64,000 nucleotides of DNA from Maribellus maritimus. Lineage in GTDB: Bacteria; Bacteroidota; Bacteroidia; Bacteroidales; Prolixibacteraceae. The notes beneath the pieces are model-generated. The model was not told the origin of the DNA, made no database searches, and saw nothing but the letters and a program-made list of their open reading frames with translations. The position numbers were made by a program, and so were the translations under genes. Each line of letters opens with the position of its first letter. Position 1 is the first letter of the stretch. Location: NCBI RefSeq assembly GCF_022267315.1, contig NZ_JAIKLE010000007.1, positions 1 through 64,000 of the forward strand, written 5' to 3'. This document shows positions 15,753 through 56,094 of the stretch, in pieces.

Positions 15753-16364
15753 ATGGATCGTAAAAAACCGATAAGACATCTGAACGCGGAACAAAAAAGA
15801 CTGGAATCTTTTCAGGAGTTGTTCTTTAAATATCATGGCAGGCTTGTCCTCTTTGCGAAAAAATTTACCGATGATATAGAGGTTGCACAGGATTTAGTAC
15901 AGGATGCTTTTCTTAAACTGTGGGAAAAATCAGAAGATCTTTCATCTGTTGATTCCCCCAAAGCCTATCTATTCCAGGCGGTACGTAACAGTTGTATAAA
16001 TAACCAACGCCACTTGCACATAAAACACTCGGTAAAAGAAGAACTGATTTACAAATTAAATTCGATGGAAAGGGCATCTTATTTGAAATCAGATGATCCG
16101 CTAAGCAGTTTGTTTGAGAAAGAGATTGAGGAAAAAGTAGAAAAAATCATTCAATCTATGCCCGATAAATGTCGCCAGGTATTTTTATTAAGTCGCAGGG
16201 AACATTTCAAGAACAAACAAATTGCCCAAAAACTCAGCATATCTGAAAAAATGGTTGAGAAACATATTTCAAAAGCCCTTGCCCTTTTGCGGGCAGGACT
16301 TTCCAAACACCTTGGAATAGTACTTTTTGCCATAGTAAACGCCTCCCCTGCCCCTCCAACTTAG
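15753..16364 (+). CDS. ECF (FecI-like) RNA polymerase sigma factor
   Basis: The 203-aa protein shows sigma region 2 at about residues 22-65 (KFTDDIEVAQDLVQDAFLKLWEK) and region 4 at about 130-190 (MPDKCRQVFLLSR, then KQIAQKLSISEKMVEKHISKA). It has the size and layout of the Bacteroidota sigma-70 ECF factors paired with FecR regulators. The paired anti-sigma gene follows after 155 bp, then SusC with an STN signalling domain. The expected circuit is substrate at SusC, signal through FecR, release of this sigma, and transcription of susCD. A hairpin directly after the stop may uncouple its level from that of FecR. Confidence 0.93.
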   Translation: MDRKKPIRHLNAEQKRLESFQELFFKYHGRLVLFAKKFTDDIEVAQDLVQDAFLKLWEKSEDLSSVDSPKAYLFQAVRNSCINNQRHLHIKHSVKEELIYKLNSMERASYLKSDDPLSSLFEKEIEEKVEKIIQSMPDKCRQVFLLSRREHFKNKQIAQKLSISEKMVEKHISKALALLRAGLSKHLGIVLFAIVNASPAPPT

Positions 16365-16519: not shown

Positions 16520-17533
16520 ATGGATACAAAAAAATCAATTAAAGCAACAATAATTGCTCGTTTAAACGGCAGCCTGCGTGAAGAAGAATTAAAAAAACTA
16601 AACGATTGGGTGGCGCAATCAGAAGAAAACACAAAATATTATGCCCGCGTCAAAGATCTGTGGGAAGCTTCCCAGCCCAATATTTCACAAATTGCAGAAA
16701 CGGAAAAAGAGTGGTCAAAATTCCTTTTAAACATCGGAAAGGGCCATCGGGAAAATATGTTCAACCTTTTAAGCAACTGGCAAATCGTATATCGTTTTGC
16801 TGCTATTCTTTTCATTGGGTTGGTGGTTGGAGTATTGGTCACAAAATTCAACTCAAAACATGAAACAGGATACGTTACTTCGATCGCGCCGGCAGGTTCG
16901 GTATCTCAAATGATACTCGCCGACAGCACGCTCGTTTATCTGAATGCCGGTTCTGAACTTCGATATTCTCCCGAAACAAACAACAAAAAAAGAGAGGTCT
17001 ATTTAACCGGAGAAGCATGGTTTCAGGTTGAAAAAAATAAACAAAAGCCATTTATAGTGCATACTCAATATTATGATGTGCAGGTAACCGGAACGCAATT
17101 TAATGTAAAATCATACCCTTCAGACTCTGAAGTAACCACAACCCTGGAAGAAGGACAGGTAGAAATAGGTTCATCTGAAAATTTCAAATTAACAAAGAAT
17201 ATAAGCTTACAACCCGGCGAACAAGTGGTACTTAATAAAAAGTCGAAAAAACTGTTTGTTCAAAATGTTGACACCCAGTTATTCACCTCGTGGAAAAACA
17301 ACAAGCTTATCTTCCTGAATATGAACTTAAAAGAACTTATTATTTTACTTGAACGAAGGTATGGCGTAGACATAGAGGTTTTTGATGACGATATTCTTAC
17401 TTATCACTATTCAGGAACAATCAAAAATGAATCGATACTGGATATTATGCAAATCATCCAGCATACATTACCCATAGAATTTAAAATTGAAAATCAAAAA
17501 ATAATAATTCATAAAAACAAACAGGAGGAATAA
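16520..17533 (+). CDS. FecR family anti-sigma factor
   Basis: The 337-aa protein has a cytoplasmic N-domain (residues 1-85) that would bind the sigma factor. One transmembrane helix follows at about residues 90-110 (AAILFIGLVVGVLVTKF). The periplasmic FecR domain (about 125-235) carries PAGSVSQMILADSTLVYLNAGS and LTGEAWFQVEK, and a C-terminal DUF4974/STN-like domain (about 265-335) ends the protein. This is the standard Bacteroidota trans-envelope regulator. Its periplasmic end should contact the STN domain of the SusC encoded 117 bp downstream. The gene has the same base composition as the upstream region, not that of the AT-rich block that begins inside susC. Confidence 0.93.
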   Translation: MDTKKSIKATIIARLNGSLREEELKKLNDWVAQSEENTKYYARVKDLWEASQPNISQIAETEKEWSKFLLNIGKGHRENMFNLLSNWQIVYRFAAILFIGLVVGVLVTKFNSKHETGYVTSIAPAGSVSQMILADSTLVYLNAGSELRYSPETNNKKREVYLTGEAWFQVEKNKQKPFIVHTQYYDVQVTGTQFNVKSYPSDSEVTTTLEEGQVEIGSSENFKLTKNISLQPGEQVVLNKKSKKLFVQNVDTQLFTSWKNNKLIFLNMNLKELIILLERRYGVDIEVFDDDILTYHYSGTIKNESILDIMQIIQHTLPIEFKIENQKIIIHKNKQEE

Positions 17534-17650: not shown

Positions 17651-20600
17651 ATGAAAAAAAATGATGAAAGCACTTTGCTTAATAGCAGAAGTGTGAAAAA
17701 GCTATTACTAACTATGAAACTAACATTTTTGTTATTACTAATCGGACTAATGCAGGTTTCGGCTTCTGTATATTCTCAAAGTACCCGTTTCTCTTTCGAT
17801 TTGTCAGATACAAAAGTGGTTGACGTATTAAAAGAGATTGAAAGCAAAAGTGAATTTCGGTTTTTCTATCAAAACGAACAAATTGATGTGGAACGGAAGG
17901 TCAACATCTCCGTTTCCGATAAAACAGTAGAAGAAATTCTGAATGAGCTGTTCAACGGATACAGTATAGAATACAAAATTTTCAGTGATAAATTAATATT
18001 ACTTGGGGCGGAAAAAGCTATAAATAATGCAGTTAAGGATGATTTAACTTCTCCACAAAAAACGGTATCAGGAACTGTAACTGATGAAGCAGGAATTCCA
18101 CTTCCGGGTGTAACCGTTGTGGTGAAGGGAACAACGCAGGGAACTGTGACAAATGTCGACGGTTATTATTCTCTCCCGAATGTTCCGGCAGAGGCAACAC
18201 TTCAGTTCTCATTTGTTGGAATGATAACCCAAGAAGTAGTTGTAGGTAACCAAAGCTCCATCAATATTCAAATGGAAACAGATGCCATTGGTATTGAAGA
18301 AGTGGTTGCTATAGGTTATGGAACAAGAAAAAAAGAAACATTAACTGGTGCAATTAGTACCATAGATAGTAAAACATTTGAAACTAGACCAATAACTTCC
18401 GCTATTAATGCTTTGCAAGGGACCACATCAGGACTTATAGTTACTAGAAACTCGGGGCAACCGGGCTCACAAGGTTTATCAATTCAATTGCGAGGTATGA
18501 GTTCAATAAATGGAGGAAATAGTCCGCTAGTACTTATTGATGGCCTTCAATCAAACCTTGAAACAATTAACCCAGATGATATAGAAAGTATTTCTGTATT
18601 AAAGGATGGCACTGCAGCCATCTATGGGAATCAAGCATCCAATGGTGTAATATTAGTAACAACAAAAAAAGGGATTAGAGGAATCCCAAAGATAACTTAC
18701 AATATGTCCTATGGTTTTAATTATCCCACCTACATTCCTGAAAAAACAACTATGAGACAGTTTATGGAAATGGTCAATGACGGCAGAATAAATGATGGAC
18801 AATCTGAATTGTTTGGAGAGATATTTTTTGATGCCTTGGGAACTGACCAAGTCCTAAACTTAAACCAGTCTGCTGATGGGGGAGCATTGAGAGATGATAG
18901 CTATTTGATTTTTAATCAACCTGAAAATGCATTTGTAAATGAATTTTTTGAAACGGGACAAAGACAATATCATAATCTAAGTGTGGAGGGAGGATGTGAT
19001 AATTCGATTTATAGGCTTTCTTTAGGCTTCTTGGATGAAAATGGTGTAATAAATTCCAAATATGATGATTATAAAAGATATAATATTCGTTTAAACAATA
19101 CATTTAATATAGGGAAAAAATTAGTGCTTGCGACGCAAAATTCCGTGGAATTGGGTGATGTTTCTGAAAATTCTCAATTAGATTTAGCTTATTCACATAT
19201 AATGAGCAATTGGACGATTATGCCAATGCGTAGGAGGCTTGATGGAGCATATTATACATTCAGAGGCTTTAATAATCCAAATGATTTATTATTGCAAGGC
19301 GGTGAAATTTCAACTAAAAATACTCGATTAATTTCTAGCTTTAAGCTTGATTATGACATTACAGAAGAATTAAAGCTAACTACAAATTTTGGAATTAATC
19401 ATCTGATTAATAAAGCACAAACAAAAATTCCAACAATTTATCTAGCAAATACCTGGAATACAGATCCTCCTGGTTTTAGAATAGTTCCGCAAACTAGTCC
19501 AAATAGAATAAACGAGTCTTTCGCTACTAATAATTATATGACCATGGATGCATATCTGAATTATGCAAAATTAATAAATGAAGAAAATAACGTTTCTTTA
19601 ACTGTAGGAGCATCACATGAACAACGAAAGTATAATTACAACTACGCGGAATCAAGAAATTTTCCAACTAATGAATTACTGTCATTAAGTCTTGGTGACC
19701 TTGATGAAGCGAGAGTAAATTCTAATGGATGGGCTTGGACTATACGTTCTTTGTTTGGAAGACTAAATTACGAATATAAAGAAAAATTAATTGCCGATGC
19801 GGTATTAAGGGCGGATGGTTCGTCAAGATTCACAAAAGAATATAGATGGGGTACATTTTGGGGAGCAATGTTAGCTTATCGACTTTCTGAAGATAATTTT
19901 ATTAAAAATTTAGATTTTTTTGATAATCTAAAGATTCGCGTATCATATGGTGAGACGGGTAATCAAGAAGGAATTGGCTATTATGATTATTTATCTTTAA
20001 TTAATGTAGGAAGCCCGATAATATTTGGCCCCCCCTCTAGTATGTGGGGCAACCAGACAGAAAATTCATATTTTGTTGAAAGTGGTGCAGTCAGCACTGA
20101 AAGAAGTTGGGAGACCTTAGCTACAACTAATTTGGGAATAGATATATCTATCTTGAATTCGAAACTAAATGCATCTTTCGATTATTATATCAAACAAAAT
20201 AAAAACATGTTGGTAGCAGTTGACCTGCCTACTGTACTTGGTATATCTCCTCCTGCATTAAATAAAGGACAAATGGAAACGAAAGGTTTCGAACTTGAAG
20301 TGAATTGGATAGACAAAATTGGTAATCTAAATTACTATATAAAGGGTACAATATTTAACGATAAAAATAAATTAACAAGTTTACAAGGATCAGAAGGAGT
20401 AAAACAAGAAGGTATTAATAATAGATTGGTTGGTTATTCAATTGGGACATATTTTGGGTGGAAATTTGATGGAATTATCCAAAATGAATCCGAACTTAAT
20501 GAATATGTTTCTAATGTAACATCAGGTATTCCCAGTGCAATTGAAGTCGGTGATGTGCGATATGTTGATGTTGATAATAACGGAAGATTAAGTGCATTAG

Positions 20601-21145
20601 GAAATCCAACAGAAGGAGACATTGGTGATTTAGTTGAGTTAGGAAATATAAGACCCCAATATAGTTTTAGTTTTAACTTTGGTGGGGATTATAAAGGATT
20701 TGATTTCAATGTTCTTTTTCAAGGAGTTGGTAAAAAAACTCTCTTTAAAACAGGTCACTGGTCTAGACCAATATTAAATTGGTTTAATCAGGGATTAAAA
20801 GCTTTTTATGGAGAAACCTGGACTCAAGAAAATGTAAACGCTAAATATCCGCGTTTGAGTGTTGATGCTGGAATTAATGATTATAATTATAGAATTTCAG
20901 AAAATAAAAAGATTAATGGTGCTTACGTCCGATTAAAAAATATTCAAATTGGATATAGCATACCAAAAGAATTATTATATAAAGTTAAAGTAGACAATTT
21001 AAGATTATATATCAGCGGAGAAGATCTTTTTGAATTCCAATCTCAAGAATCCCGTGATTTTGGATTTGACCCTGAACTAGGTGCCCAAGGATTTAACTAT
21101 CCTTTTATACGAACGTTCTCACTTGGAACTCAAATTACCTTTTAA
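17651..21145 (+). CDS. susC: SusC/RagA TonB-dependent transporter with STN domain (apparently chimeric)
   Basis: The 1164-aa outer-membrane protein has a signal peptide ending near SVYSQ (residue 43). It then has an STN signalling domain (about 45-118), a carboxypeptidase-regulatory-like domain (about 138-210, GTVTDEAGIPLPGV), the TonB-box/plug junction EEVVAIGYG (216-224), a plug (about 225-340) and a 22-strand barrel ending in aromatic residues. It imports oligosaccharides with its SusD lid and energy from TonB. The domain order and length are normal, and no frameshift is seen. Base composition changes inside the gene: 18121-18180 is 29/60 GC, whereas 19021-19080 is 15/60. The change falls near the plug junction, so the signalling half and the transport half may have different origins. 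The start at 17651 keeps the complete signal peptide. Confidence 0.95.
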   Translation: MKKNDESTLLNSRSVKKLLLTMKLTFLLLLIGLMQVSASVYSQSTRFSFDLSDTKVVDVLKEIESKSEFRFFYQNEQIDVERKVNISVSDKTVEEILNELFNGYSIEYKIFSDKLILLGAEKAINNAVKDDLTSPQKTVSGTVTDEAGIPLPGVTVVVKGTTQGTVTNVDGYYSLPNVPAEATLQFSFVGMITQEVVVGNQSSINIQMETDAIGIEEVVAIGYGTRKKETLTGAISTIDSKTFETRPITSAINALQGTTSGLIVTRNSGQPGSQGLSIQLRGMSSINGGNSPLVLIDGLQSNLETINPDDIESISVLKDGTAAIYGNQASNGVILVTTKKGIRGIPKITYNMSYGFNYPTYIPEKTTMRQFMEMVNDGRINDGQSELFGEIFFDALGTDQVLNLNQSADGGALRDDSYLIFNQPENAFVNEFFETGQRQYHNLSVEGGCDNSIYRLSLGFLDENGVINSKYDDYKRYNIRLNNTFNIGKKLVLATQNSVELGDVSENSQLDLAYSHIMSNWTIMPMRRRLDGAYYTFRGFNNPNDLLLQGGEISTKNTRLISSFKLDYDITEELKLTTNFGINHLINKAQTKIPTIYLANTWNTDPPGFRIVPQTSPNRINESFATNNYMTMDAYLNYAKLINEENNVSLTVGASHEQRKYNYNYAESRNFPTNELLSLSLGDLDEARVNSNGWAWTIRSLFGRLNYEYKEKLIADAVLRADGSSRFTKEYRWGTFWGAMLAYRLSEDNFIKNLDFFDNLKIRVSYGETGNQEGIGYYDYLSLINVGSPIIFGPPSSMWGNQTENSYFVESGAVSTERSWETLATTNLGIDISILNSKLNASFDYYIKQNKNMLVAVDLPTVLGISPPALNKGQMETKGFELEVNWIDKIGNLNYYIKGTIFNDKNKLTSLQGSEGVKQEGINNRLVGYSIGTYFGWKFDGIIQNESELNEYVSNVTSGIPSAIEVGDVRYVDVDNNGRLSALGNPTEGDIGDLVELGNIRPQYSFSFNFGGDYKGFDFNVLFQGVGKKTLFKTGHWSRPILNWFNQGLKAFYGETWTQENVNAKYPRLSVDAGINDYNYRISENKKINGAYVRLKNIQIGYSIPKELLYKVKVDNLRLYISGEDLFEFQSQESRDFGFDPELGAQGFNYPFIRTFSLGTQITF

Positions 21146-21164
21146 TTAAAAATATGCAATTATT

Positions 21165-22811
21165 ATGAAAAATTTAATATATATTTTATTCGCTCCTATA
21201 TTGTTTCTAGGATGTCAAGATTTTGATCTCACTCCTGAACATCAATTGTCTGATGGAAGTTTATGGGATAAATCTGAACACTATAAAGCAGGTGTCAATA
21301 TACTTTATCCTAGCATCGGATCTCATTCTGATGCAACTGATAATGATTCTGATTTTTCTTATGCCCTTGGGCCTAATAACATTAGTAATGGCTCAAGAGA
21401 TGTTCCAGCATCAAGTAATTTTTATAATAATTCTTACAGAGATATTCGCCGATGCAATTTTATTATCGATAGAGCAATAGAAAATGGATTTGAAAGTGAT
21501 CGTTATGTGGCTGAAGCTCGATGGTTTAGAGCGCTTTTCTATTTTCGGTTAGTTGAAGCTTATGGTGACATTCCTTTTTACACAAAAACTTTGGATCCCT
21601 CTTCTGAAGAATTATTTGATACTAGAACACCAAGAAAAGAAGTTGTCGATTTCATTTTACAAGAATTAAAGGAAGTATCTGAATTACTGCCAGAACAAAG
21701 TCAACTTGATAATTCTGAGCTTGGTCGAATCACAAAAGGTGCTGCAAATGCACTAAGAGCAAGAGTCGCTTTATTTGAAGGAACTTGGATCAAATATCAT
21801 GGAACACCAGGCGATGCAAATGAAAGATTCGATCAAGCAATAACTGCATCAAAAGCTGTTATAGATAGTAAAGAATATTCGTTGTTCAGTTATGAATCAA
21901 ATCCGGAACAGTCCTACAGGTATTTTTTCATGGAGGTAGGAAATGACTCAAAAGAGCAAATAGTTGCACGGAGATATGATCTAAATAATTACCATGGCTT
22001 TAGTTTACAAGTGTATGAAGGATTTAACTCTTCAACGAGAAAATTGGCTGATTTATATTTGTGCAAAGATGGTCTCCCAATTAATAAGTCCCCTCTTTAT
22101 GAAGGCCGTCAATTAATGATTTCAGAATATGAGAATAGGGATTCAAGGATGACTATGACAATAATTCCACCTGGATATTATGCCATTGACAGATTAGATC
22201 AAGAAGGTACGGGACAGGATTTTCCAGAATTCTTGAGAGAACAAACACTTTATACAACCTATAAGTTCCTGACTGAATTTTATGTTGATCAAACTGGACA
22301 CAGGGGAGTGTTCTACTATCATATGCTACGATATGCGGAAGTACTTTTAATATATGCAGAGGCATTGTATGAGAAAAATGATGGCATTACGGATGCCCAA
22401 TTAGGAGAATCTATTAATATTGTTAGGGCAAGGGCAGGGATGCCTAACTTAACTAATGATTTTATCTCTCAAAATGGATTAGATATAAAAACTGAAATCA
22501 GGAGGGAAAGAAGTATAGAGCTTGCACATGAAGGTTTTAGAAGAAGCGATTTACGAAGATGGAAAACTGCGGAAATTGAAATGCCGATGGCCATAAGAGG
22601 AGTTCAATTCAAAAATACTGAATATGAGACTGCAATACTTGAAGACGGAACATTACGATACCCGTATACTCCATCTCTTGATAATGATGGGAATATAATA
22701 GTTGAACCAGAGGATCAGAGATCTTTCAAAATAGAAAGAGATTACTTAGAACCTATTCCTTCAGAAGAATTACTAAAAAATCCTAATCTGGCACAAAATC
22801 CTAACTGGTAG
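21165..22811 (+). CDS. susD: SusD/RagB outer-membrane glycan-binding lipoprotein
   Basis: The 548-aa lipoprotein has a lipobox ending at Cys17 (ILFLGC), followed by the helical TPR-like SusD fold. Typical segments are ARWFRALFYFRLVEAYGDIPF, MLRYAEVLLIYAEAL, IRRERSIELAHEGFRRSDLRRW, and the C-terminal PIPSEELLKNPNLAQNPNW. SusD binds the glycan at the cell surface and closes over the SusC barrel. It begins 19 bp after susC, has the same AT-rich composition as the susC barrel half, and is followed by a hairpin at 22824. Pairing with the upstream SusC is therefore firm. Substrate specificity cannot be read from the sequence. Confidence 0.95.
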   Translation: MKNLIYILFAPILFLGCQDFDLTPEHQLSDGSLWDKSEHYKAGVNILYPSIGSHSDATDNDSDFSYALGPNNISNGSRDVPASSNFYNNSYRDIRRCNFIIDRAIENGFESDRYVAEARWFRALFYFRLVEAYGDIPFYTKTLDPSSEELFDTRTPRKEVVDFILQELKEVSELLPEQSQLDNSELGRITKGAANALRARVALFEGTWIKYHGTPGDANERFDQAITASKAVIDSKEYSLFSYESNPEQSYRYFFMEVGNDSKEQIVARRYDLNNYHGFSLQVYEGFNSSTRKLADLYLCKDGLPINKSPLYEGRQLMISEYENRDSRMTMTIIPPGYYAIDRLDQEGTGQDFPEFLREQTLYTTYKFLTEFYVDQTGHRGVFYYHMLRYAEVLLIYAEALYEKNDGITDAQLGESINIVRARAGMPNLTNDFISQNGLDIKTEIRRERSIELAHEGFRRSDLRRWKTAEIEMPMAIRGVQFKNTEYETAILEDGTLRYPYTPSLDNDGNIIVEPEDQRSFKIERDYLEPIPSEELLKNPNLAQNPNW

Positions 22812-22823
22812 ATTTTAAATTTA

Positions 22824-22845
22824 GGGAAGGATTAAAATCCTTCCC
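22824..22845 (+). terminator. Hairpin after the first susD
   Basis: A 9-bp perfect stem (GGGAAGGAT 22824-22832 with ATCCTTCCC 22837-22845) has a 4-base loop and only a short CTTT after it. It lies between susD and the next gene, 17 bases before that start codon. It may limit read-through or protect the susCD message from 3' decay. Confidence 0.55.
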
Positions 22846-22861
22846 CTTTAGAAATAAAAAT

Positions 22862-23839
22862 ATGAAGAAAATTCTATTTTCCATAAGTATCTTATTTGCT
22901 TATTTTAAAATATATGGGGTAGATGAAATCAATAAAATATTTACTCAAGAAACCGAAAATAACGTAATAACAATTTTATCAACTGATTTATCAATTGATA
23001 GAGATCCAGATGATTGGTTCGATCTTTTTTTGTTTTTACAACTTAATGAAATTAATGCTTCAGGAATTATTTTAGATAATTATGCCACAAATGAAGTTGA
23101 AAAATATGCAAACGAGTTTTTAGCTATTTTAAAAAAAGAGAATATACCAATTTTGAAAGGAGTCCAAAGCAAACTTAAAATTTTAAATGATACGGTTCAA
23201 GCATCTAAATATCATGATGGAGCAGAATTCATAATTGAAACTATGCGTAAAACATCTTGTAAAGTCCGGTTGATTGCGGTTGGAAGTTTGCGCAATGAGG
23301 CTTTGGCATTTAGTAAAGATTCTATATTATTTATGGAAAAGATTGAGAATGTTTATTTTATTGGTGGAAACTGGGATTATTTAAATGAAATGAATATAGG
23401 TTTAGACCATATTGCTGGTGATATTATTCTTAACTCACCAATTCCAATTATTTGGATACCTGCAGTTTGGAGCAATAGAATTTTATTTCCTGGCGAATAT
23501 GAAAATCAACTTTACTTATTTAAAGATTCAGTTTCAATATTTCTTAGTGATATTTTAAAAAAATGGCGAATCTACCGCGGTGAAAAATTTCTAAAACAAA
23601 CAGATCAATTTCCTCTAGGGAAGAATCTTTGGAGCTTTCCCGCATTATTACATGCTTCTGGGAATTTATCCGAGAATATGATTTTTCATAATGGTACTAT
23701 TTCAATGAGTATTGAAAAGGAAAAAATAAATTTCAAAAGGCAATCTGAAGGGAAGGACAAAATGCTTGTTGAAAGAAATTCAAATGTAATCATAGAATGG
23801 TTCTGGAATCTATATCGAAATTCGATTCTTATAAAATAG
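22862..23839 (+). CDS. Divergent nucleoside hydrolase-like exported protein
   Basis: The 325-aa protein has a hydrophobic N-terminal export signal. An aspartate cluster, STDLSIDRDPDDWFD (residues 40-54), sits where inosine-uridine hydrolases carry the calcium-binding DxDxxxDD motif. LRIVAVGS-like and PIIWIPAVWSN-like segments (seen here as VRLIAVGSLRN and IPIIWIPAVWSN) fit the same Rossmann-like fold. The normal family cleaves N-glycosidic bonds of nucleosides with calcium. The aspartates are rearranged relative to the classical motif, so catalysis is uncertain. The protein lacks the downstream histidine context I would expect in a standard member. It is AT-rich like its neighbours and belongs to the cassette following susD. 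A different glycosidic substrate is possible. Confidence 0.65.
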   Translation: MKKILFSISILFAYFKIYGVDEINKIFTQETENNVITILSTDLSIDRDPDDWFDLFLFLQLNEINASGIILDNYATNEVEKYANEFLAILKKENIPILKGVQSKLKILNDTVQASKYHDGAEFIIETMRKTSCKVRLIAVGSLRNEALAFSKDSILFMEKIENVYFIGGNWDYLNEMNIGLDHIAGDIILNSPIPIIWIPAVWSNRILFPGEYENQLYLFKDSVSIFLSDILKKWRIYRGEKFLKQTDQFPLGKNLWSFPALLHASGNLSENMIFHNGTISMSIEKEKINFKRQSEGKDKMLVERNSNVIIEWFWNLYRNSILIK

Positions 23840-23929
23840 TATAAATGTGAAATTAATGATATTCAAATGCATAGGTATTTTGTCATTCTCACGTGAAGGG
23901 GAATATATTTATTTTAAAATCAGAACATT

Positions 23930-25555
23930 ATGAAAAAAGAATATCAATGGTCATCTTTCAAACACCTCTCCTTTGGAAAGGATCGGCGAGGCTTTTATGT
24001 TTTTCTAACATTTGCTCTTTTAATGATTTCATGTCACCCAAAGTCGGAAGAAAAGCAAAACCCCAATTTTGTTTTCATCTTAGCCGATGATTACGGTTAT
24101 CACGATTTAAGTATTTCAGGTAGTAAATTTTACGAAACACCCAATATTGACAGGATTGCAGCTGAAGGAATGATTTTTACCGATGGATATGCAACTTGTC
24201 AGGTTTGCAGTCCGTCGCGTGCGAGTATCATGTCGGGGAAATTTCCTGCCCGGCACGGAATTACCGACTGGATTGGAGCTGCAACCGGAGAAGACTGGAG
24301 AAAACAGGGACGGCAGAACCAGTTGCTTCCACCGGAATACGAACACAGTCTTTCATTGAATTACACAACTTTACCCGAGGCAATGAAAGAGGCAGGATAT
24401 AAAACTTTTTTTGCCGGGAAGTGGCATTTGGGAAGCAAAGGTTCGTGGCCCGAAGATCATGGTTTCAACATTAACAAAGGAGGTTGGGACGTTGGCAGCC
24501 CAAAAGGCGGTTATTTTGCTCCGTGGGAAAACCCGAATCTTCCCAGCGGGCCCAATGGTGAAAATCTTTCCATGCGGCTGGCCAAAGAAACCGTTCAGTT
24601 TCTGAAAGAAAATAAAGACACAGCTTTTTTTGCTTATCTGGCATTTTATGCCGTGCATGGCCCCATTCAAACAACACGGGAAAAATGGACAAAATACCGT
24701 GAAAAAGCAGAGGAACTCGGAATTGCTGAAACGGGTTATAAGATGGGTCATTTTTTCCCCATCCGTCAGGTGCAGGACAACCCTGTTTATGCCGGACTGG
24801 TTGAAGCGATGGACGATGCTGTCGGTGAAGTTTTAAAAGCGTTGGATGAGCTTGGACTGGCAGAAAACACCGTGGTTATTTTTACTTCGGATAATGGAGG
24901 AGTGGCTGCAGGTGATTCATATTCTACATCGAATTTACCGCTGCGTGCCGGTAAGGGTTATCAGTTTGAAGGTGGAATTCGCGAGCCCTATTTTATAAAA
25001 GTTCCGGGATTGGGCAACGGACAAAAAAACAGTACTCCGGTTACCGGAACCGATTTTTATCCAACTATTCTTGAACTGGCAGGAGCATTGTTAAAACCTG
25101 CTGAACACAGTGATGGCGTGAGCCTCGTTCCACTTTTAAAAGGGGGGACGATTCCGGAAAGGCCACTTATCTGGCATTATCCGCATTACGGAAATCAGGG
25201 TGGCGAACCTTCCTCTATTATTCGTTTGGGCGATTGGAAACTGATTCATTATTATGAAGATGGCCGCGAAGAATTGTACAACTTGAAAAACGATGTGGAA
25301 GAAACTACCGATTTAGCTGCCGAACATAAAGGAATTGTAAGTGAGCTCAATGAAAAATTGTTTAATTATCTGGATGAAGTGGGAGCAAAATTTCCGGTAA
25401 AAGATCCGGAATACGATCCAAAAAAAGAAAAAGACTATTTACAGAATGTAATTAACAAACGCTGGCCCCAACTTGAAAAGCAACGTCTTGATTACCTTTC
25501 AAAAGATTATGATCCGGGAAATGACTGGTGGGGAAGTAAAATTACAAACGATTAA
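23930..25555 (+). CDS. S1 family sulfatase lipoprotein (CSPSR)
   Basis: The 541-aa protein has a long N-terminus before a hydrophobic segment and a lipobox ending at Cys35 (LMISC). The key features are LADDYGYHD (51-59), Cys93-S-P-S-Arg97, GKWHLG (about 160), and TSDNGG for the second half of the metal site. It would cleave a glycan sulfate ester. Its composition (30/60 GC at 24781-24840) differs sharply from the AT-rich genes on both sides, so it has a separate history from the cassette it sits in. A second ATG-like start inside the first 36 residues cannot be excluded, but the lipobox supports the long form or one close to it. The next gene starts 9 bp after its stop. Confidence 0.93.
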   Translation: MKKEYQWSSFKHLSFGKDRRGFYVFLTFALLMISCHPKSEEKQNPNFVFILADDYGYHDLSISGSKFYETPNIDRIAAEGMIFTDGYATCQVCSPSRASIMSGKFPARHGITDWIGAATGEDWRKQGRQNQLLPPEYEHSLSLNYTTLPEAMKEAGYKTFFAGKWHLGSKGSWPEDHGFNINKGGWDVGSPKGGYFAPWENPNLPSGPNGENLSMRLAKETVQFLKENKDTAFFAYLAFYAVHGPIQTTREKWTKYREKAEELGIAETGYKMGHFFPIRQVQDNPVYAGLVEAMDDAVGEVLKALDELGLAENTVVIFTSDNGGVAAGDSYSTSNLPLRAGKGYQFEGGIREPYFIKVPGLGNGQKNSTPVTGTDFYPTILELAGALLKPAEHSDGVSLVPLLKGGTIPERPLIWHYPHYGNQGGEPSSIIRLGDWKLIHYYEDGREELYNLKNDVEETTDLAAEHKGIVSELNEKLFNYLDEVGAKFPVKDPEYDPKKEKDYLQNVINKRWPQLEKQRLDYLSKDYDPGNDWWGSKITND

Positions 25556-25564: not shown

Positions 25565-26959
25565 ATGAGTCATAAAATAATTTTTTCAATTTTATCCCTG
25601 ATTTTTTTAGTTAGGGTTTCTGTTGCCAAAGAGATATCTTCTCAAAAGCCAAACATCATTATTATATTGGCCGATGATTTGGGGTATGGTGATTTAAAAT
25701 GCTATGGTAATAAAAATAATATAACTCCTAACATAGATCAGATGGCAGAAGACGGGATTCGTTTCACAGATTTTTATATGGCATCTTCTGTATGTACTCC
25801 GTCAAGAGCTGCTTTGTTAACTGGTTGTTATCCTGAACGGATTGGGCTAAATAATGTTCTTTTTCCTAATTCAATGCCTCTTGGACAAAAAAATGGTATG
25901 GCAATTGGATTAAATCCAACAGAAATAACCATTGCAGAATTACTAAAATCAAAAGATTATAAAACAGCTTGCATAGGTAAATGGCATCTGGGTGATATCC
26001 CTGAGTTCATGCCTCTCAACCAAGGGTTTGATGAATATTTCGGATTACCTTATAGTAATGATATGATTCCAGGTAATACTCGATATGAATTTGAACCTAT
26101 TCCTTTATATGATGGCACTAAAGTTATTGAAACTAATCCTGACCAAGATTATCTCACTATGCGTTATACAGAAAAAGCGAAAGAATTTATTAAAAGAAAC
26201 AAAAACAATTCTTTTTTTCTCTATTTAGCTCATAATATGCCTCATCGTCCATGTCATGCATCATACAAATATGCTCAAAAATGGTTTTCTAATGAAAAGC
26301 TATCTGAAATTAATGGAGAAGGCAAAGAAACACGTGATTTTCTATATCCTGCAACAATAGAAGAACTAGATTGGAGTGTGGGAGAGATATTAATTACATT
26401 AAAAGAATTTAACATTGATTCTAATACATTAATAATATTTACTTCAGATAACGGTCCTGCCGTTGGAAGTGCAGGACCGTTAAAGGGAGGAAAGGGATCA
26501 ATATATGAAGGTGGTTTACGTGTACCATGCATTATGCAATGGAATAACATGATCCCAAAAGGAACATTGTGCCAAGAATTGACCTCTTGTATTGACATTT
26601 TTCCAACACTTGCTTATATAGCCGAAAGTAATGTACCAGATGACAGAGACATTGATGGAATAAACATAATAGATTATTTTTTAGGAGGTAAAAAAAATAA
26701 TCTACGTAATACTTTTTTTTATCTAAAACAAGGTCACGGAATCCAAGCAATCAGGTATAAAAGCTGGAAATTATTTATTGGAGAAAATCTCCAGTTATAC
26801 AATTTAAGAAATGATATTGGAGAAAAAAATAACCTTGTAGGAGAATATCCAGAATTAGAAAAATATCTAACTGAACAAATTTATAAATTCAACAAAAAAC
26901 TATCTGAGAATAATAGAACACTAGGACAAATTCCAATTAAAGAGGAGGGGAACAATTAA
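25565..26959 (+). CDS. S1 family sulfatase, secreted (CTPSR)
   Basis: The 464-aa protein has a signal peptide probably cleaved near VSVAKE (residue 21), with no lipobox cysteine. LADDLGYGD (35-43), Cys77-T-P-S-Arg81, GKWHLGD (about 140) and TSDNGPAVG define a complete S1 active site. The sequence resembles the arylsulfatase A/galactose-sulfatase-like branch by its GKGSIYEGGLRVP segment, but I do not assign a substrate. It is AT-rich (14/60 GC at 26161-26220), unlike the sulfatase just upstream, and is followed 12 bp later by the GH43/GH117-type gene. The ending IKEEGNN is short and shows no extra domain. Confidence 0.93.
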   Translation: MSHKIIFSILSLIFLVRVSVAKEISSQKPNIIIILADDLGYGDLKCYGNKNNITPNIDQMAEDGIRFTDFYMASSVCTPSRAALLTGCYPERIGLNNVLFPNSMPLGQKNGMAIGLNPTEITIAELLKSKDYKTACIGKWHLGDIPEFMPLNQGFDEYFGLPYSNDMIPGNTRYEFEPIPLYDGTKVIETNPDQDYLTMRYTEKAKEFIKRNKNNSFFLYLAHNMPHRPCHASYKYAQKWFSNEKLSEINGEGKETRDFLYPATIEELDWSVGEILITLKEFNIDSNTLIIFTSDNGPAVGSAGPLKGGKGSIYEGGLRVPCIMQWNNMIPKGTLCQELTSCIDIFPTLAYIAESNVPDDRDIDGINIIDYFLGGKKNNLRNTFFYLKQGHGIQAIRYKSWKLFIGENLQLYNLRNDIGEKNNLVGEYPELEKYLTEQIYKFNKKLSENNRTLGQIPIKEEGNN

Positions 26960-26971: not shown

Positions 26972-28024
26972 ATGAAAAAATCATTTTATGTTATTTATAT
27001 TTTATTTATTTGCCTGATACTATTTTTTTTACTGTTTGGTTTTAAATCGATTTCAAAAAATAAATTGATACGGGGGAATGGGAAACAAACAGTTTTAAAA
27101 GACAGCATTTATTTTAAATATGAAAAAATATCAGGTATTGGATATACAGAAGGTATTTCACGACGTGATCCTAGTGATATAATTAAAGTAGGAGATCTAT
27201 ATTATATTTGGTATACAAAGATAACTGCTAATTCTTGTTTATATCCTAGTGGTTACTGTGGTACAATATGGTACGCTACTTCACCTGATGGATACTCTTG
27301 GATTGAAAAAGGAGAGGCTCTTAGTGTTGGGGAAAATTCGGAATTTGATAGTCATGCTGTTTTTACTCCAAATATTTTAAAGTATAAAGATAAGTATTAC
27401 TTATATTATACTGGAGTAAAACCTACACCTGAGAATCCATTTAACGAATTCGAAAATAACTCTGATACAGATATTACGGCTATTGGCGTTGCAGTGTCAG
27501 ATAGTCCAGATGGACCGTTTGTAAGAATAAATCGTGAGCCTATTCTTATGTTTAGTAATATTACTATGGATTTTGACAGTTATAGAGTTGACGATGCATC
27601 TTTGTTGGTTAGAGATAAAAAGATTTGGCTGTATTATAAAGGCAGGTCAAGAATTTATGGAAAAGAGGGGCCTAAATTTACAAAAATGGGAGTTGCACTT
27701 TCTAACCATCCAGAAGGCCCCTTTTACAAGCAGAAAAAACCATTACTTGACGGCAGTCATGAAGTACTTATATGGAATCAGGATGGAGGTATAGCTGCAC
27801 TTGCATCAATTAGCAGCTCTATACAATTTGCTCCAAATGGATTTAATTTTTCATCTGCGCAGAATAATCTCAAACAAATTCCGCAGGCACCGGGATTATA
27901 TCGTCCATCTTTAACAGAACATTTTATAGATACCATACCTGGTTGGGGAATTTCTCATATGATGGAGAAAAACGATATTTACTTGATAAGGTTTAATATA
28001 GTTTCCAATAATGAAACTAACTAA
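26972..28024 (+). CDS. GH43/GH117-type five-bladed beta-propeller glycosidase
   Basis: The 350-aa protein has an N-terminal hydrophobic helix (residues 4-25) that may anchor or export it. The propeller starts with SRRDPSDIIKVGDLYYIWYT and contains FTPNILKYKDKYYLYYTG and YRVDDASLLVRDKKIWLYYKG. The repeated 'D-P-S / D-A-S-x-x-V-x-D' acid motifs are those of clan GH-B/F propellers. The RRDPS segment and the overall spacing resemble GH117 and its GH43-like relatives, some of which remove 3,6-anhydro-L-galactose from red-algal oligosaccharides. Anhydrogalactosidase activity is therefore only one possibility. It sits between a sulfatase and a nucleoside hydrolase in the AT-rich block with 12-bp gaps, which indicates one operon. 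Confidence 0.75.
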   Translation: MKKSFYVIYILFICLILFFLLFGFKSISKNKLIRGNGKQTVLKDSIYFKYEKISGIGYTEGISRRDPSDIIKVGDLYYIWYTKITANSCLYPSGYCGTIWYATSPDGYSWIEKGEALSVGENSEFDSHAVFTPNILKYKDKYYLYYTGVKPTPENPFNEFENNSDTDITAIGVAVSDSPDGPFVRINREPILMFSNITMDFDSYRVDDASLLVRDKKIWLYYKGRSRIYGKEGPKFTKMGVALSNHPEGPFYKQKKPLLDGSHEVLIWNQDGGIAALASISSSIQFAPNGFNFSSAQNNLKQIPQAPGLYRPSLTEHFIDTIPGWGISHMMEKNDIYLIRFNIVSNNETN

Positions 28025-28036: not shown

Positions 28037-29062
28037 ATGAAGAATCATAAATTCTCAAATAGTGAGAATCAATTTTGGTTAATAATTTTATTTTGTTTAT
28101 GTATAGTATCAAAAATACATTCACAAGAACCTGTTAAAATAATTTTTGATACAGATATGGCTAGTGATTGTGATGATGCTGGTGCACTTGCAGTTTTGAA
28201 TGCTTTAGCAGATCTTGGAGAAGCTGAAATATTAGCAGTTGTAACAAACAGGAAGGATGCCGCCAATTCATCTGCTGCCGCGGTTAGTGTAATTAATACT
28301 TATTATGGCAGACCTGATATACCTATAGGAACAGACAAAGATGGAATTTATAAAATGGGTAATTCGAGTTCTTTTACACTCCAATTAAAAAATGAGTTTC
28401 CGAATAATGCGGATTACGATAATGAGATGCCTGACGCACTTGATATATACAGGAAAATCCTTTCCTTGCAGCCTGATTCTTCTGTTGTTATTTGTAGTGT
28501 TGGTGCATTAAGTAACTTGGAAGACTTAGTTCGGTCCAAAACTGATGAATATAGTAGCTTAGATGGATTGGAACTCATTCGTAAGAAGGTAAAAAAGACA
28601 ATTATAATGGGTGGAGGATTTCCTCGCACTCAGCTACCTGAAACAAATATCCGGCTTGACCCATCCGCTGCGGTTACTGTAACAAATGAATGGCCTGGTG
28701 AAATCATATGGCAAGGAGTTGAAGTAGGTTGGGCAATTTATACTGGCATGAAGTTAAAACAAACCAGTCCTAGAAATCCTGTCCGTCGTGCTTTTGAATT
28801 ACGACCTTTCAGAGGGCAACCAGCAATTAATCAGGGCAAACCAAGTCATGATCAAGCCGCGATTTTAATTTCGGTAAAAGATATAGACAGTATTTATTGG
28901 TCTGTTTCTCCTTATGGACAAGTAGTTATTGATTCTGAAGGCAATACAGAATGGATGCAAAATAATAGTAAAAAACACAGATTTGTTTCAATTAAATCAC
29001 ACCCATGTTATTTGGCAAATATTATAGAAGATTTAATGTCTCAACCTCCTCATAATTATTAA
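28037..29062 (+). CDS. Exported nucleoside hydrolase family protein
   Basis: The 341-aa protein has an N-terminal signal peptide ending near KIHSQ (residue 30). IIFDTDMASDCDDAGAL (36-52) is the calcium-binding motif of a nucleoside-hydrolase subgroup common in Bacteroidota. VVICSVGALSNLEDL and TIIMGGGFP support the same fold. A classical member would hydrolyse the N-ribosyl bond of nucleosides. Export and placement among sulfatases imply an extracytoplasmic substrate. Together with the divergent relative at 22862 and the nucleoside-permease-type transporter at 34147 it forms an unusual theme for a polysaccharide locus. The true substrate may be a nucleoside or an unrelated glycoside. Confidence 0.8.
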   Translation: MKNHKFSNSENQFWLIILFCLCIVSKIHSQEPVKIIFDTDMASDCDDAGALAVLNALADLGEAEILAVVTNRKDAANSSAAAVSVINTYYGRPDIPIGTDKDGIYKMGNSSSFTLQLKNEFPNNADYDNEMPDALDIYRKILSLQPDSSVVICSVGALSNLEDLVRSKTDEYSSLDGLELIRKKVKKTIIMGGGFPRTQLPETNIRLDPSAAVTVTNEWPGEIIWQGVEVGWAIYTGMKLKQTSPRNPVRRAFELRPFRGQPAINQGKPSHDQAAILISVKDIDSIYWSVSPYGQVVIDSEGNTEWMQNNSKKHRFVSIKSHPCYLANIIEDLMSQPPHNY

Positions 29063-29070: not shown

Positions 29071-30732
29071 ATGCTTAATTTATTATCTGACAACAACATT
29101 TTCAACTTGAAATCAATTATATCAAAAATTTGCTTAGCAACTTTGGCACTAATAGGTTTTAGTTTTAATGAAAACAGCGATGAATCTGATCAAAGACCTA
29201 ATATTCTTGTTATCATTTGTGATGATTTGAATGACAGTGTAGAAGGAATGGGTGGACATCCTCAGGCAATTACTCCAAACATTGACAGGCTTATGTCGGA
29301 AGCGGTTATTTTTCAGAATGCTCATTGTAACGCACCTCTTTGTGGACCTTCACGTGCCTCACTATGGACAGGAATATATCCTCATAAAAGTGGAATAATT
29401 GGTTATAATCAGAATAAATATACATGGAGAGATAGTCCTGTTTTAAAAAACGCGGTTACAATATTTGAACACTTTTCATTAAATGGATATGGAGTTTATA
29501 CAACAGGAAAAATATTTCATAATAATCAGCATACCGCTAAATTGATTCAAACTCTAAATGGTTCTGGTTCATTTCAAAATAACAGTTCTTTTGGACCTTC
29601 ACCATGGAATGGATTAGTAGAGATTCCTCATGTGCCTCATCCTTCAATGAAATTACCTTGGGGCTTAAATTATTTTGAAACAGTCGCCCCACTGTCGGAT
29701 GTACCAAATGTATTGCCTGTACCACACAAGGGAATTCCTGGCTATAGTGGTTGGAGACTAAATGGGAAACCATTTTATTACAACAACAAAGATGATAGAG
29801 ATGAAATGCCAGATGAAATTAGTGCAGAATGGGCAATTAAGCAACTTCAGAAAGAACATGAAAAACCATTCTTTTTAACTGTAGGATTCGTTAGACCTCA
29901 TTGTCCATGGGTAGTTCCTGATGATTTTTTTAACATGTTTGATCCTGATACTTTAGTATCTCCCCCATATTTATTAAATGATACAAAAGATTGTGGTCTA
30001 TTATCTCCTGACCGTTATGAAATGCATGATGAATGGACAAACCGATTTTTTCGGTTAAATAAAGCTTATGATAATGGTGAAGGTTGGAAAATGTGGTTAC
30101 GAGGATATCTTGCATCAGTTACATTTGTCGATGCTCAAATTGGAAAAATACTTGATGCATTAAAAACAAGTATTTATAAAAATAATACAATAGTCGTATT
30201 AATTGCTGATAATGGATTTCATATGGGTGAAAAAGATCTACTCCGAAAAAATACGGTTTGGGAGGAAAGTACACGCATCCCATTCATCATTAAACTTCCT
30301 AATAATGAAGCAAATTCTAGCAAACAATGTCTCCATCCAGTTTCGTTAATAGATTTATATCCAACTTTGATTGATTTATGTGAATTACCCAAAGAACCTA
30401 ACCAGAATATAAATCAAAAAAAATTGGATGGAAATAGTCTACTCCCACTTTTAGATGATCCCGAAATCGATATATGGGGTGGGCCAGAAATAGCTTTAAC
30501 GGTAGTAACAGGAATGAGTGACGTAAAAGTTGGAGAATTACCTCCTGTAAACGAACAACACTATTCAGCTCGTTCCCAGGAATTTAGATATATTCTTTGG
30601 GCTGATGGATTTGAAGAATTATATGATCATCGAAAAGATCCGTACGAATGGTATAATTTGTCTGACAATCCAAACTATTCTCAAATAAAAACAAGGTTAA
30701 ACAAACAAATGAAAGAGCTGCTATTAAGGTAA
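29071..30732 (+). CDS. S1 sulfatase, iduronate-2-sulfatase-like
   Basis: The 553-aa protein has a hydrophobic N-terminal segment (about residues 15-32). It has DDLNDSVEGMGGHPQAITPNI (51-71), Cys91-G-P-S-Arg95, GKIFHN (about 147-152), FVRPHCPWVVP and ADNGFHMGEKD. The DDLN opening, CGPSR, GKIFH and VRPHCP set is characteristic of the iduronate-2-sulfatase-like branch of S1. Such enzymes often attack 2-O-sulfated uronic acid or related sugars, although marine members act on other residues. It is the last gene of the AT-rich cassette. The start ATG at 29071 is 8 bp after the preceding stop. The susD fragment begins 38 bp beyond its stop. Confidence 0.92.
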   Translation: MLNLLSDNNIFNLKSIISKICLATLALIGFSFNENSDESDQRPNILVIICDDLNDSVEGMGGHPQAITPNIDRLMSEAVIFQNAHCNAPLCGPSRASLWTGIYPHKSGIIGYNQNKYTWRDSPVLKNAVTIFEHFSLNGYGVYTTGKIFHNNQHTAKLIQTLNGSGSFQNNSSFGPSPWNGLVEIPHVPHPSMKLPWGLNYFETVAPLSDVPNVLPVPHKGIPGYSGWRLNGKPFYYNNKDDRDEMPDEISAEWAIKQLQKEHEKPFFLTVGFVRPHCPWVVPDDFFNMFDPDTLVSPPYLLNDTKDCGLLSPDRYEMHDEWTNRFFRLNKAYDNGEGWKMWLRGYLASVTFVDAQIGKILDALKTSIYKNNTIVVLIADNGFHMGEKDLLRKNTVWEESTRIPFIIKLPNNEANSSKQCLHPVSLIDLYPTLIDLCELPKEPNQNINQKKLDGNSLLPLLDDPEIDIWGGPEIALTVVTGMSDVKVGELPPVNEQHYSARSQEFRYILWADGFEELYDHRKDPYEWYNLSDNPNYSQIKTRLNKQMKELLLR

Positions 30733-30770: not shown

Positions 30771-30914
30771 ATTAGAACGCTGGACAGAACTTATCTTCCC
30801 GAAGATGTTTCATGGCACGGTCCGAGAACGATAGAATCTACCTCAACTTCGATAGTACATTTTATACCCGAATCAGAAATCATATTAAATCCTGCACTGG
30901 TGCAGAATCCTTAA
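30771..30914 (+). pseudogene. Remnant of a susD gene (C-terminal end only)
   Basis: An open frame of 47 codons runs from just after an in-frame TGA (30768-30770) to TAA at 30912-30914. It ends with FIPESEIILNPALVQNP. SusD proteins typically end with '(P)IPxSEIxxNPxLxQNP', so this is a clear SusD-type tail. The intact SusD at 21165 ends differently (PIPSEELLKNPNLAQNPNW), so the remnant is not a duplicate of it. There is no start codon or upstream SusD domain; the preceding DNA is the AT-rich sulfatase. A canonical terminator follows 12 bp later, as would suit the end of a former susCD unit. I infer the rest of this susD was lost when the cassette arrived. Confidence 0.72.
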
Positions 30915-46570: not shown

Positions 46571-46717
46571 AAATTATACGCCAACCTGACTTAAAGCGAC
46601 AAAAAGCAAAAATGAAATCTCCGACATCCCCACTTTCCCACTTCTCAAAAAATATAATTCTTAAGGTTGGTAAAATTGAAACTGGATTGTCTATTCTTTA
46701 AAACCACGCAAAAGAGC

Positions 46718-47695
46718 ATGAGCAACGAAAAAATAAAAGAGTTAATTCAAAATTTTTTGGAAGGAAAACTTTCGGAAGAAAAAGAGGAGTTTCTGCTTTC
46801 CTGGGTAAAGGAGAGCGAAACAAACAAAAATCTTTTTCTTTCGGAGCAGGAGAATATACAAAATGATTTACTCTCTTCAACTGATCGCCGCCTGGAAATG
46901 AGATGGCGCTCGTTATTGAAAAAAATTCAAAACACAGAAAAACATCAAAGAGGAAAAATAAAACTACGAAGAACTGCGTCTGTGGCTGCAGCATTTATTT
47001 TTGGGGTTTTGTTCACTTTTTGGGCAACTGAAACCCGCGACGTAACATCAGTATTGGTTACTCAAAACATCTCAACTCCCCTGGGAGCAAAAACAAATTT
47101 TGAACTACCTGATGGTTCTGTGGTTTGGCTCAACTCGGGTTCCAAACTTTCCTACCCTTCAGAATTTGGAGAAATTCGTTCAGTAAAACTCACAGGTGAA
47201 GCGTTTTTTGATGTCAAAAAAGACAAAAAACATTTTGTCATTTCAACAGAATATGGCAACGTAGAAGTTCAGGGTACATCGTTTAATGTAAAAGCTTTCA
47301 AAAATGAAGTTTTTGAGACGACGCTTGTTTCGGGAATTGTAAGCATTACCGAAAAAAATACAAAAAAACGGGTTACTCTGCATCCCGGACAACAAGCCGA
47401 TATTTTGGAATCAAAAATTAGTGTAAAAAATGTCGATACTGAACTTTACACTTCGTGGAAAGAGGGAAAACTTATCTTCAGGGAAGAATATTTGCCCTCA
47501 GCAGTTAAACGACTTGAAAGATGGTACAATGTTACGATTGAACTGGACGACGATCCCCGGTTATCAAAAATATGGTATTCAGGAACACTTGAAATGGAGT
47601 CTTTCAGCGAAGTATTGGAATTACTAAAGGTTACTGCTCCGATATCGTATTATTACAATGAAAAAACCCGTACAATACGGATATTTTATGATTAG
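46718..47695 (+). CDS. FecR family anti-sigma factor
   Basis: I start at ATG 46718 (MSNEKIKELIQNFLEGK), giving 325 aa; an in-frame TTG 51 bases upstream would add a non-conserved leader. The cytoplasmic N-domain precedes one transmembrane helix at about residues 85-105 (SVAAAFIFGVLFTFWAT). The periplasmic FecR domain has STPLGAKTNFELPDGSVVWL and LTGEAFFDVKKD, and a C-terminal DUF4974 domain follows (about 250-322). It should hold the adjacent sigma factor until the STN domain of the SusC at 47919 signals substrate. The 223 bp to susC contain no gene; AAGAGG near 47828 and CCTCTT near 47868 could pair only across a long loop. Confidence 0.92.
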   Translation: MSNEKIKELIQNFLEGKLSEEKEEFLLSWVKESETNKNLFLSEQENIQNDLLSSTDRRLEMRWRSLLKKIQNTEKHQRGKIKLRRTASVAAAFIFGVLFTFWATETRDVTSVLVTQNISTPLGAKTNFELPDGSVVWLNSGSKLSYPSEFGEIRSVKLTGEAFFDVKKDKKHFVISTEYGNVEVQGTSFNVKAFKNEVFETTLVSGIVSITEKNTKKRVTLHPGQQADILESKISVKNVDTELYTSWKEGKLIFREEYLPSAVKRLERWYNVTIELDDDPRLSKIWYSGTLEMESFSEVLELLKVTAPISYYYNEKTRTIRIFYD

Positions 47696-51290: not shown

Positions 51291-51306
51291 CTTAAAAAGT
51301 AGAAAA

Positions 51307-53055: not shown

Positions 53056-53067
53056 AATTTTCAAACA

Positions 53068-53098
53068 GGCAATTATGGTTGGGAAAACCATAATTGCC
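53068..53098 (+). terminator. Hairpin after the second susD
   Basis: A 13-bp perfect inverted repeat (53068-53080 with 53086-53098) has a 5-base loop. The tract after it (GTTGTAATATTTTT) is only loosely T-rich, so it may act as an attenuator or a 3' stabiliser of the susCD message. The sulfatase at 53125 starts 27 bases later. Confidence 0.65.
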
Positions 53099-53124
53099 GT
53101 TGTAATATTTTTAATTTCAAACAT

Positions 53125-54480: not shown

Positions 54481-54529
54481 GATTATTCTTTTGTGATACA
54501 GGAACATTTCAAACTTAAAACCAAAGAAA

Positions 54530-55963: not shown

Positions 55964-56094
55964 CCAATAGCTTTAAGCCATTATAGAAAAATGAGAAATA
56001 AAAAAAATGAAATATATAAAATCAACAAAGTCTATTGCAGCAATTTGTCAAAACTTTAAAATGTTTATGATAGTCAAGTTTAGTTAATGTTACA

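Follow-up and report, generated by a model that had tools for sequence, protein, structure and literature searches.

In this work we analyze a 64,000-nucleotide stretch of the genome of Maribellus maritimus (contig NZ_JAIKLE010000007.1, positions 1 to 64,000 of the forward strand; hereafter the window) and report that its susC gene at 17651-21145 is chimeric. Comparison with related genomes reveals the chimera, its joint, a scar of a former susD gene, the foreign nearest relative of the barrel, the module-wise co-variation of the locus and the recurrence of the pattern at other SusC loci. The gene very probably arose through the in-frame replacement of a cassette, which brought in foreign plug, barrel, SusD and accessory genes and kept a resident signalling module made up of a sigma factor, a FecR anti-sigma factor and the STN domain and N-terminal extension (NTE) of SusC. 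An earlier note on this DNA, made from its sequence alone, had proposed a SusC with a resident signalling half and a foreign barrel, a proposal now supported by collinearity with a close relative on both sides, by an exact break in identity and by the scar. The note had not foreseen that the swapped unit is a 12.5-kb cassette and not the barrel alone, nor the direction given by the scar, the swapped state of the gene it offered as a control and the recurrence across the genome.

The joint, the cassette and its origin

The gene encodes a SusC/RagA TonB-linked outer-membrane protein (TIGR04056, 829.2 bits against a cut-off of 368.25, residues 137-1164) with its susD partner directly downstream, and the locus holds a complete transducer set, with STN in SusC, a FecR protein with FecR_C and an extracytoplasmic function (ECF) sigma factor encoded upstream. 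The window lies on a 240-kb contig (C179) of a draft genome (G000; 201 contigs, 3.71% estimated contamination) and was compared with G031, a complete, one-contig genome of the same genus that is 96, 98 and 100% identical in the sigma factor, FecR and SusC residues 1-133, respectively. When 102 kb of the contig are aligned with 100 kb of G031, five collinear pieces of 90-97% identity result. Both blocks of own DNA without a partner start within susC genes (those at 17651 and 47919), and the remaining two interruptions are extra G031 DNA: 452 nucleotides (nt) near window position 63645, and an IS4-family transposase gene (NF033590, 333 bits; L217, 13003-14430) that separates sigma from fecR in the orthologous locus.

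Within susC, nt 1-660 are 99% identical to G031 and the remainder 41%. The DNA of the two genomes is exactly identical up to 18310 (GGTATTGAAGAAGTGGTTGCT), after which identity lies at 30-45%, and this collapse at 18290-18310 places the crossover in the EEVVAIGYG tract, as had been predicted. The tract ending at 18310 encodes GIEEVVA of GIEEVVAIGYG (residues 214-224), the break falling between EEVVA and IGYG with the reading frame unbroken. Aligned by eye, GIEEVVAIGYG matches the Ton box DEVVVTG of Bt1763, which the excerpted text of PMC7782687 maps after the NTE and calls flexibly unstructured; the same excerpt gives a domain order that is the reverse of the STN-then-NTE order of the Pfam matches in the window SusC. 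Ton-box DNA is among the most conserved tracts of susC (in 67 own SusCs its consensus frequency is 0.79-0.80, where the mean for the gene is 0.51), and 20 nt at the joint (18290-18309) are shared exactly by the recipient-type gene of G031 and the donor-type gene of G061, a genome from another genus of the family. A first reading had set the break at the STN/NTE boundary, the G061 protein being 71% identical in the NTE and 29% in the STN; it was overturned by the comparison with G031, which puts the break in the Ton box. Other loci do break near STN/NTE.

The cassette (18311-30773) carries the plug, the barrel, SusD, two IU_nuc_hydro proteins, three sulfatases and a GH43-like protein, at a position where G031 has about 4 kb with a different barrel (21% identity) and a different susD. 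Collinearity with G031 is back at 30774, inside the G031 susD gene, of which the window keeps the last 46 of 491 codons and the stop codon. This scar indicates that the window allele descends from a G031-type locus and is the derived one. Identity to G031 reaches 99.8% over the first 1.6 kb or so to the right of the joint (30774-32374) and is 95.5% over the whole collinear piece, a difference that could mean a recent transfer of the flank with the event.

Homologues were sought in 149 related genomes with the sigma factor, FecR and SusC residues 1-133 as queries, and a wider search for the barrel covered 393 genomes sampled from the order (E<=1e-230). The nearest barrel is that of G061 (contig C36; 66% identity), accompanied by relatives of the SusD (68%) and of the GH43-like protein (53%); the signalling side of this locus is unlike that of the window, with an N-terminal part (N-part) 33% identical and sigma and FecR matches of only 57 and 114 bits. 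The two halves of the gene have different nearest homologues, G031 for the N-part (100%) and G061 for the barrel, in agreement with the foreign barrel that had been postulated, and no barrel match is found in G031 at E<=1e-180. G061 holds a window-type signalling module (sigma factor, FecR and SusC N-part, hereafter the socket) on a separate contig, C8, whose SusC barrel is 28% identical. When the barrel was searched against plasmids with tblastn, all 157 records were below 60% identity. A scan of contigs for FecR gave three relatives, of which one Bacteroidales metagenome-assembled genome (L376) combines a FecR of 53% identity and a socket-like N-part (60% over 95 residues) with a barrel of 28.5%.

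Separate phylogenies of the two parts, a check proposed in the earlier note, conflict. In the tree of the N-part (31 rows, 134 columns) the window is identical to G031 and G056 and G070 come next by path; forcing the window, G031 and the G061 C36 sequence together gives p 4e-4 in the approximately unbiased (AU) test. In the tree of plug and barrel (927 columns; quick search under LG+G4, with a long-branch warning that includes the joining of G031_g7 with G014) the window groups with the G061 C36 sequence with full support, and forcing it together with G031 costs 208.8 log-likelihood units (AU p 1.4e-108).

Recurrence at other SusC loci

Co-variation within the locus was analyzed over 15 orthologous loci, namely the window, G031 and 13 of the best-ranked loci in the sigma and FecR searches; G061:C13, with a stop in its sigma match, was left out, as were others (G032, G004 and G061:C8 among them) whose N-part scores are similar and whose FecR scores are lower. 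Neighbouring genes were assigned by size and position, G070 lacking sigma and G022 lacking susD. The N-parts of these loci are 35-100% identical, and 103 of the 105 barrel pairs fall at 16-34%, the exceptions being G056/G070 (95%) and G047/G052 (82%). With these two close pairs left out, the pairwise identities of sigma, FecR and N-part correlate with each other (rho 0.34-0.58), as do those of plug, barrel and SusD (rho 0.64-0.80); between the two groups rho ranges from -0.32 to 0.02, and the NTE is intermediate. Beside the G070 socket, a sigma match at C8:43166-43720 contains six stops and the FecR match one; a better sigma match is located on contig C33, possibly as an unlinked sigma factor.

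Genome-wide statistics refer to one strain pair, G000 and G031. The own set comprises 79 SusC genes of at least 700 aa from the fetched loci, short or weak TonB-like matches being left out, and was compared with 81 SusCs from fetched G031 loci: 44 genes have full-length orthologues, 15 match in one half only, and 20 have no SusC counterpart and were not counted. A different barrel is carried by 14 of the 58 shared N-parts, so that about a quarter of the SusC loci sharing a signalling half differ by barrel between these two near strains; the count includes the weak gene 197 (63% over nt 1-742). Gene 107 is the sole one-half match by its C-terminal part; its partner is G031 g51, the N-part of which corresponds to own gene 13. 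If 197 is excluded and 13 and 107 are treated as a single locus, 13 clear loci with 14 breakpoints remain. In all 13, identity first falls from its higher level at nt 322-686, gene 374 being the least clear (77% before the break), and in none does it do so inside the barrel; a uniform-break model assigns this a probability of about 3e-14, the interval having been chosen after the data were seen. Identity drops straight to barrel level at the Ton box in three of the 13, namely the window (nt 660), L061 (686) and L075 (659). STN-type genes make up 14 of the 15 one-half matches and 24 of the 44 full-length orthologues (Fisher p 0.011).

Eleven of the 15 discordant barrels have no G031 SusC counterpart over half their length, two have partial ones at 63-65%, and a close counterpart exists for gene 295 (98% to g18, with the N-part of g42) and gene 107 (92% to g51). 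Downstream of nine own regions, collinearity is regained after SusD or further genes in five (43, 361, 120, 373 and 25); within the DNA compared, it is not regained for 47 (only a 179-nt piece), 269, 270 and 295 relative to g42, and 295 tracks g18 downstream at 98.7%.

The second susC gene of the window (block 47919-56077) is G031-like to about nt 419 and then at paralogue level, followed by another SusD and two sulfatases before collinearity returns at 56078. The SusC at L107 1805-5437 (G000:C169:6804-10436) has an N-part 90% identical to g42, a barrel and downstream region 96-100% identical to g18 and an NTE 70% identical to both: a mosaic of two parents and perhaps of three parts. At two neighbouring loci of G000:C138 (L054 8808-12248 and L073 2001-5426), G031 g51 (L279) joins the N-part of the first to the remainder of the second, an arrangement that suggests a fusion by deletion, or the reverse. 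In L072 3889-7380, compared with G031 g58, nt 191-675 (STN-NTE) are 69% identical between flanks of 98% (nt 1-190) and 92% (nt 676-1259), making a replacement of the signalling segment alone possible.

Base composition and competing explanations

The earlier note had relied on base composition, which we evaluated over the 67 own SusC genes no shorter than 3200 nt by comparing nt 1-660 with the remainder. The guanine-cytosine (GC) counts it gave are exact (29/60 at 18121-18180 and 15/60 at 19021-19080), and the N-to-C fall of the window susC is the largest of the 67 (0.368 to 0.329, rank 1; rank 4 at third codon positions), its barrel GC being the lowest. The own SusCs do not share a general N-to-C gradient, their mean showing a slight rise of 0.015. 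Composition shared with the upstream genes fails to delimit a resident half, the 3' end of fecR and the signal-peptide region being AT-rich as well (0.29-0.33). The fall that had been placed at EEVVAIGYG is real but becomes visible only near 18.9-19.0 kb, about 0.6 kb past the joint, because the plug has a GC of about 0.36-0.38. The foreign block is AT-rich overall (0.342 in the cassette, 0.411 and 0.399 in the flanks) but not uniformly so, with 0.432 in the sulfatase gene at 23930-25555. The susC at 47919, named as a control, shows no GC drop (rank 33 of 67) and is itself swapped relative to G031. As a delimiter of the joint, GC was rejected on the grounds of this lag and of swapped SusCs having, on average, no stronger N-to-C drop than the others (-0.014, n=13, versus -0.016, n=54); their barrels are more AT-rich (0.375 versus 0.396; Mann-Whitney p 0.0013). 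The decisive evidence for the chimera is comparative, not compositional.

In the mechanism that we put forward, the resident sigma-FecR-SusC(STN+NTE) module would have stayed in place as incoming DNA from a G061-related lineage, comprising plug, barrel, SusD and six accessory genes, replaced the plug, the barrel and most of susD at a G031-type locus. The left crossover would lie in Ton-box DNA, which is at once a highly conserved susC tract and the flexible linker between NTE and plug, and would have been a homologous exchange between the incoming related susC and the resident gene; the right end, in the 3' part of the old susD, would have left the 46-codon scar. Selection may then have favored fusions in which STN still fits FecR and the plug still fits the barrel and SusD, a constraint that would account for the lack of breaks in the conserved plug DNA at nt 900-1080. 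The resident STN/FecR/sigma pathway would report occupancy of the new barrel, driving the polysaccharide utilization locus (PUL) by the new glycan, and we infer that the swap rewires glycan sensing in this way, the old signalling reading a new substrate.

Several observations weigh against this account. No donor above 66% is present among the 149 relatives, and no other match appears in the 393 genomes of the order at the threshold used. At the right junction no shared tract exists to the left of 30774, and this end may therefore be illegitimate rather than homologous. Among the clear loci other than the three that drop at the Ton box, identity starts to fall earlier, at nt 322-515, and six pass through an intermediate level of 65-80%. 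In about a dozen of the 44 pairs matching over their full length, the 5' part is the better conserved, with steps at nt 137-1121, so that full swaps are accompanied by a slower change of N-parts or by allelic replacement of a milder kind; in one such pair, 84/g53 (L068 1491-4940), identity steps down beside the Ton box, at nt 629, from 96% to 73%, perhaps through a milder, allelic replacement of the barrel. Finally, nt 900-1080 is another region in which the longest exact matches between own SusCs accumulate, yet no clear break lies there, and homology alone therefore does not fix where the breaks fall. We rejected microhomology as the sole cause after sampling 1200 own pairs: 722 have their longest common word at homologous positions, with 37% of those words falling in nt 320-740 and about one fifth at 900-1080.

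The best surviving alternative, which we consider improbable, makes the G031 allele the derived one, each lineage having lost a different part of ancestral tandem susCD units through recombination between neighbouring susC genes. Such a fusion is seen elsewhere, in the g51 gene of G031 that corresponds to two neighbouring own SusCs of C138, but at the window it would take two independent deletions, one of them sparing only the end of susD; moreover, none of the barrels at the 13 other orthologous loci exceeds 28% identity to that of the window or of G031, and replacement at this socket is therefore frequent.

We regard as distinctly less probable an assembly artefact in which two SusC loci were joined at a conserved repeat. 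The draft state and estimated contamination of G000 and the many repeats of SusC N-parts would favor such an error, but the longest exact word covering the joint that is shared with any of the 78 other own SusC loci is 22 nt (six positions, 18289-18313), the frame is intact, the 240-kb contig is collinear with the complete G031 genome on both sides, and the same pattern is present on other contigs. Site-specific shuffling by an invertase, which according to the portions available of PMC11852207 and PMC5729914 varies SusC/SusD expression in Bacteroides fragilis, deserves hardly any credence at this locus: no recombinase-type Pfam match is found among the 38 window open reading frames of at least 200 aa that were scanned (a scan that leaves aside shorter frames and DNA beyond the window), the Ton-box tract has a single copy in the window when both strands and up to 3 mismatches are allowed, no inverted repeat was found at the joints, and for 13 of the 15 discordant genes the G031 SusCs compared include no counterpart of the barrel above 65%. 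That the barrel merely evolves much faster than the signalling half, with no recombination at all, has next to no probability, for although NTE and plug are better conserved among paralogues than barrels are and a dozen or so full-length pairs have the more conserved 5' part described above, such pairs keep 69-99% identity along the gene (two short 5' ends excepted) against a single-point drop from 99% to 41% in the window, where the downstream gene content differs, susD has left a scar and a 66% barrel exists in another genus.

Relation to known systems and layout of the locus

The nearest precedents for the cassette replacement at the window are whole-PUL exchange, the SusC/SusD shufflon and RagA alleles with a conserved N-terminus. 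As described in the excerpt of PMC8845570, whole PULs are exchanged between core-gene nodes in Bacteroides ovatus/xylanisolvens, similarly placing different SusCD and enzyme sets between the same neighbours, with homologous recombination proposed and a mobile-element signature mostly absent; the boundaries there are core genes flanking the PUL, whereas the left boundary in the window lies inside susC and the signalling half is kept. The B. fragilis shufflon (Tsr0667), in the portions of PMC11852207 and PMC5729914 cited above, likewise varies SusC/SusD by recombination near the 5' side of the genes, through site-specific inversion at repeats that overlap the susC start codon, behind one promoter. 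Here, in contrast, no invertase or inverted repeats were found, joints lie at STN/NTE and the Ton box, and the alternative barrel is mostly absent from the other genome. The ragAB locus of Porphyromonas gingivalis, as covered in the excerpt of PMC11817032, resembles the window in that RagA, of the SusC family, has a highly conserved N-terminus including the NTE and four allele types with suggested horizontal transfer, but these are alleles of one locus, and the excerpt describes neither sigma/FecR coupling nor a mapped crossover.

Contact of STN with the anti-sigma factor and a flexible TonB-box linker have been described for related receptors (PMC7782687, PMC11637429, both in excerpt). In the latter, the N-terminal signalling domain of the FoxA/FoxR transducers (STN, anti-sigma factor and ECF sigma factor) is joined to the plug through a flexible TonB-box loop and contacts the anti-sigma C-terminal domain, as would apply here; unlike the window SusC, these are siderophore receptors, and the excerpt describes no barrel exchange. 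In the open-licence PubMed Central literature, as far as its search results cover it ('susc' being partly swamped by 'susceptibility'), we found no account of a susC barrel being exchanged at the Ton box while sigma/FecR signalling is retained.

Whether the arrangement is general is evenly balanced in our judgment: the sigma-FecR-SusC(STN/NTE) module may be a stable socket, with the STN/NTE linker and the Ton box as general in-frame joints through which cartridges of plug, barrel, SusD and enzymes are swapped within and between genera. If so, glycan regulation would evolve when the same signalling pathway comes to read a different receptor, and PULs would have a mode of evolution that differs both from the transfer of whole loci and from shufflons. 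PUL regulation must fit the imported glycan, yet PUL turnover is fast; an exchange joint inside susC would put incoming transporter and enzymes under an existing sensor circuit at once, offering bacteria a possible way to connect a food source new to them with a sensor they already have. The socket and cartridge view would make the origin of new glycan responses testable and account for conflicting SusC trees, warns that substrate is not assignable from STN, sigma or FecR similarity, and points to natural fusion points for engineering glycan sensors in Bacteroidota.

Features of the two swapped loci in the window (positions in the 64,000-nt stretch)
Feature	Position	Strand	Evidence
ECF sigma factor, resident signalling half	15753..16364	+	TIGR02985; 96% to G031
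FecR anti-sigma factor, resident signalling half	16520..17533	+	FecR PF04773 and FecR_C PF16344; 98% to G031
SusC resident half: signal, STN (PF07660, Pfam residues 70-119), CarbopepD_reg_2/NTE (139-219)	17651..18289	+	Residues 1-133 100%, nt 1-660 99% to G031
Junction tract in Ton box (GIEEVVA...)	18290..18310	+	18290-18309 identical in window, G031 and donor-type G061:C36
SusC foreign half: plug (228-333) and beta-barrel	18311..21145	+	66% to G061:C36; barrel 21% to G031
SusD of foreign cassette	21165..22811	+	PF07980 and PF14322; 68% to G061:C36, 27% to G031 susD
IU_nuc_hydro-domain (nucleoside-hydrolase-like) protein, cassette	22862..23839	+	Domain match
Sulfatase, cassette	23930..25555	+	Domain match
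Sulfatase, cassette	25565..26959	+	Domain match
GH43-like protein, cassette	26972..28024	+	53% relative beside G061 susCD
IU_nuc_hydro-domain (nucleoside-hydrolase-like) protein, cassette	28037..29062	+	Domain match
Sulfatase, last cassette gene	29071..30732	+	Domain match
Scar: final 46/491 codons and stop of G031-type susD	30774..30914	+	Identity run starts at 30774; in-frame RTLDRTYL...ALVQNP and stop
FecR upstream of second swapped susC	46667..47695	+	Collinear with G031
Shared N-part (signal, STN) of second swapped susC	47919..48340	+	nt 1-419 92% to G031 g0, then 65%, then 44%
Second replaced block: rest of susC (47919-51290), susD 51307-53055, two sulfatases	48341..56077	+	G031 collinearity back at 56078

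The rhamnosidase and sulfatase genes that surround the cassette are common to the window and G031. Within the sulfatase and GH43-like cassette itself sit two nucleoside-hydrolase-domain proteins (22862-23839 and 28037-29062).

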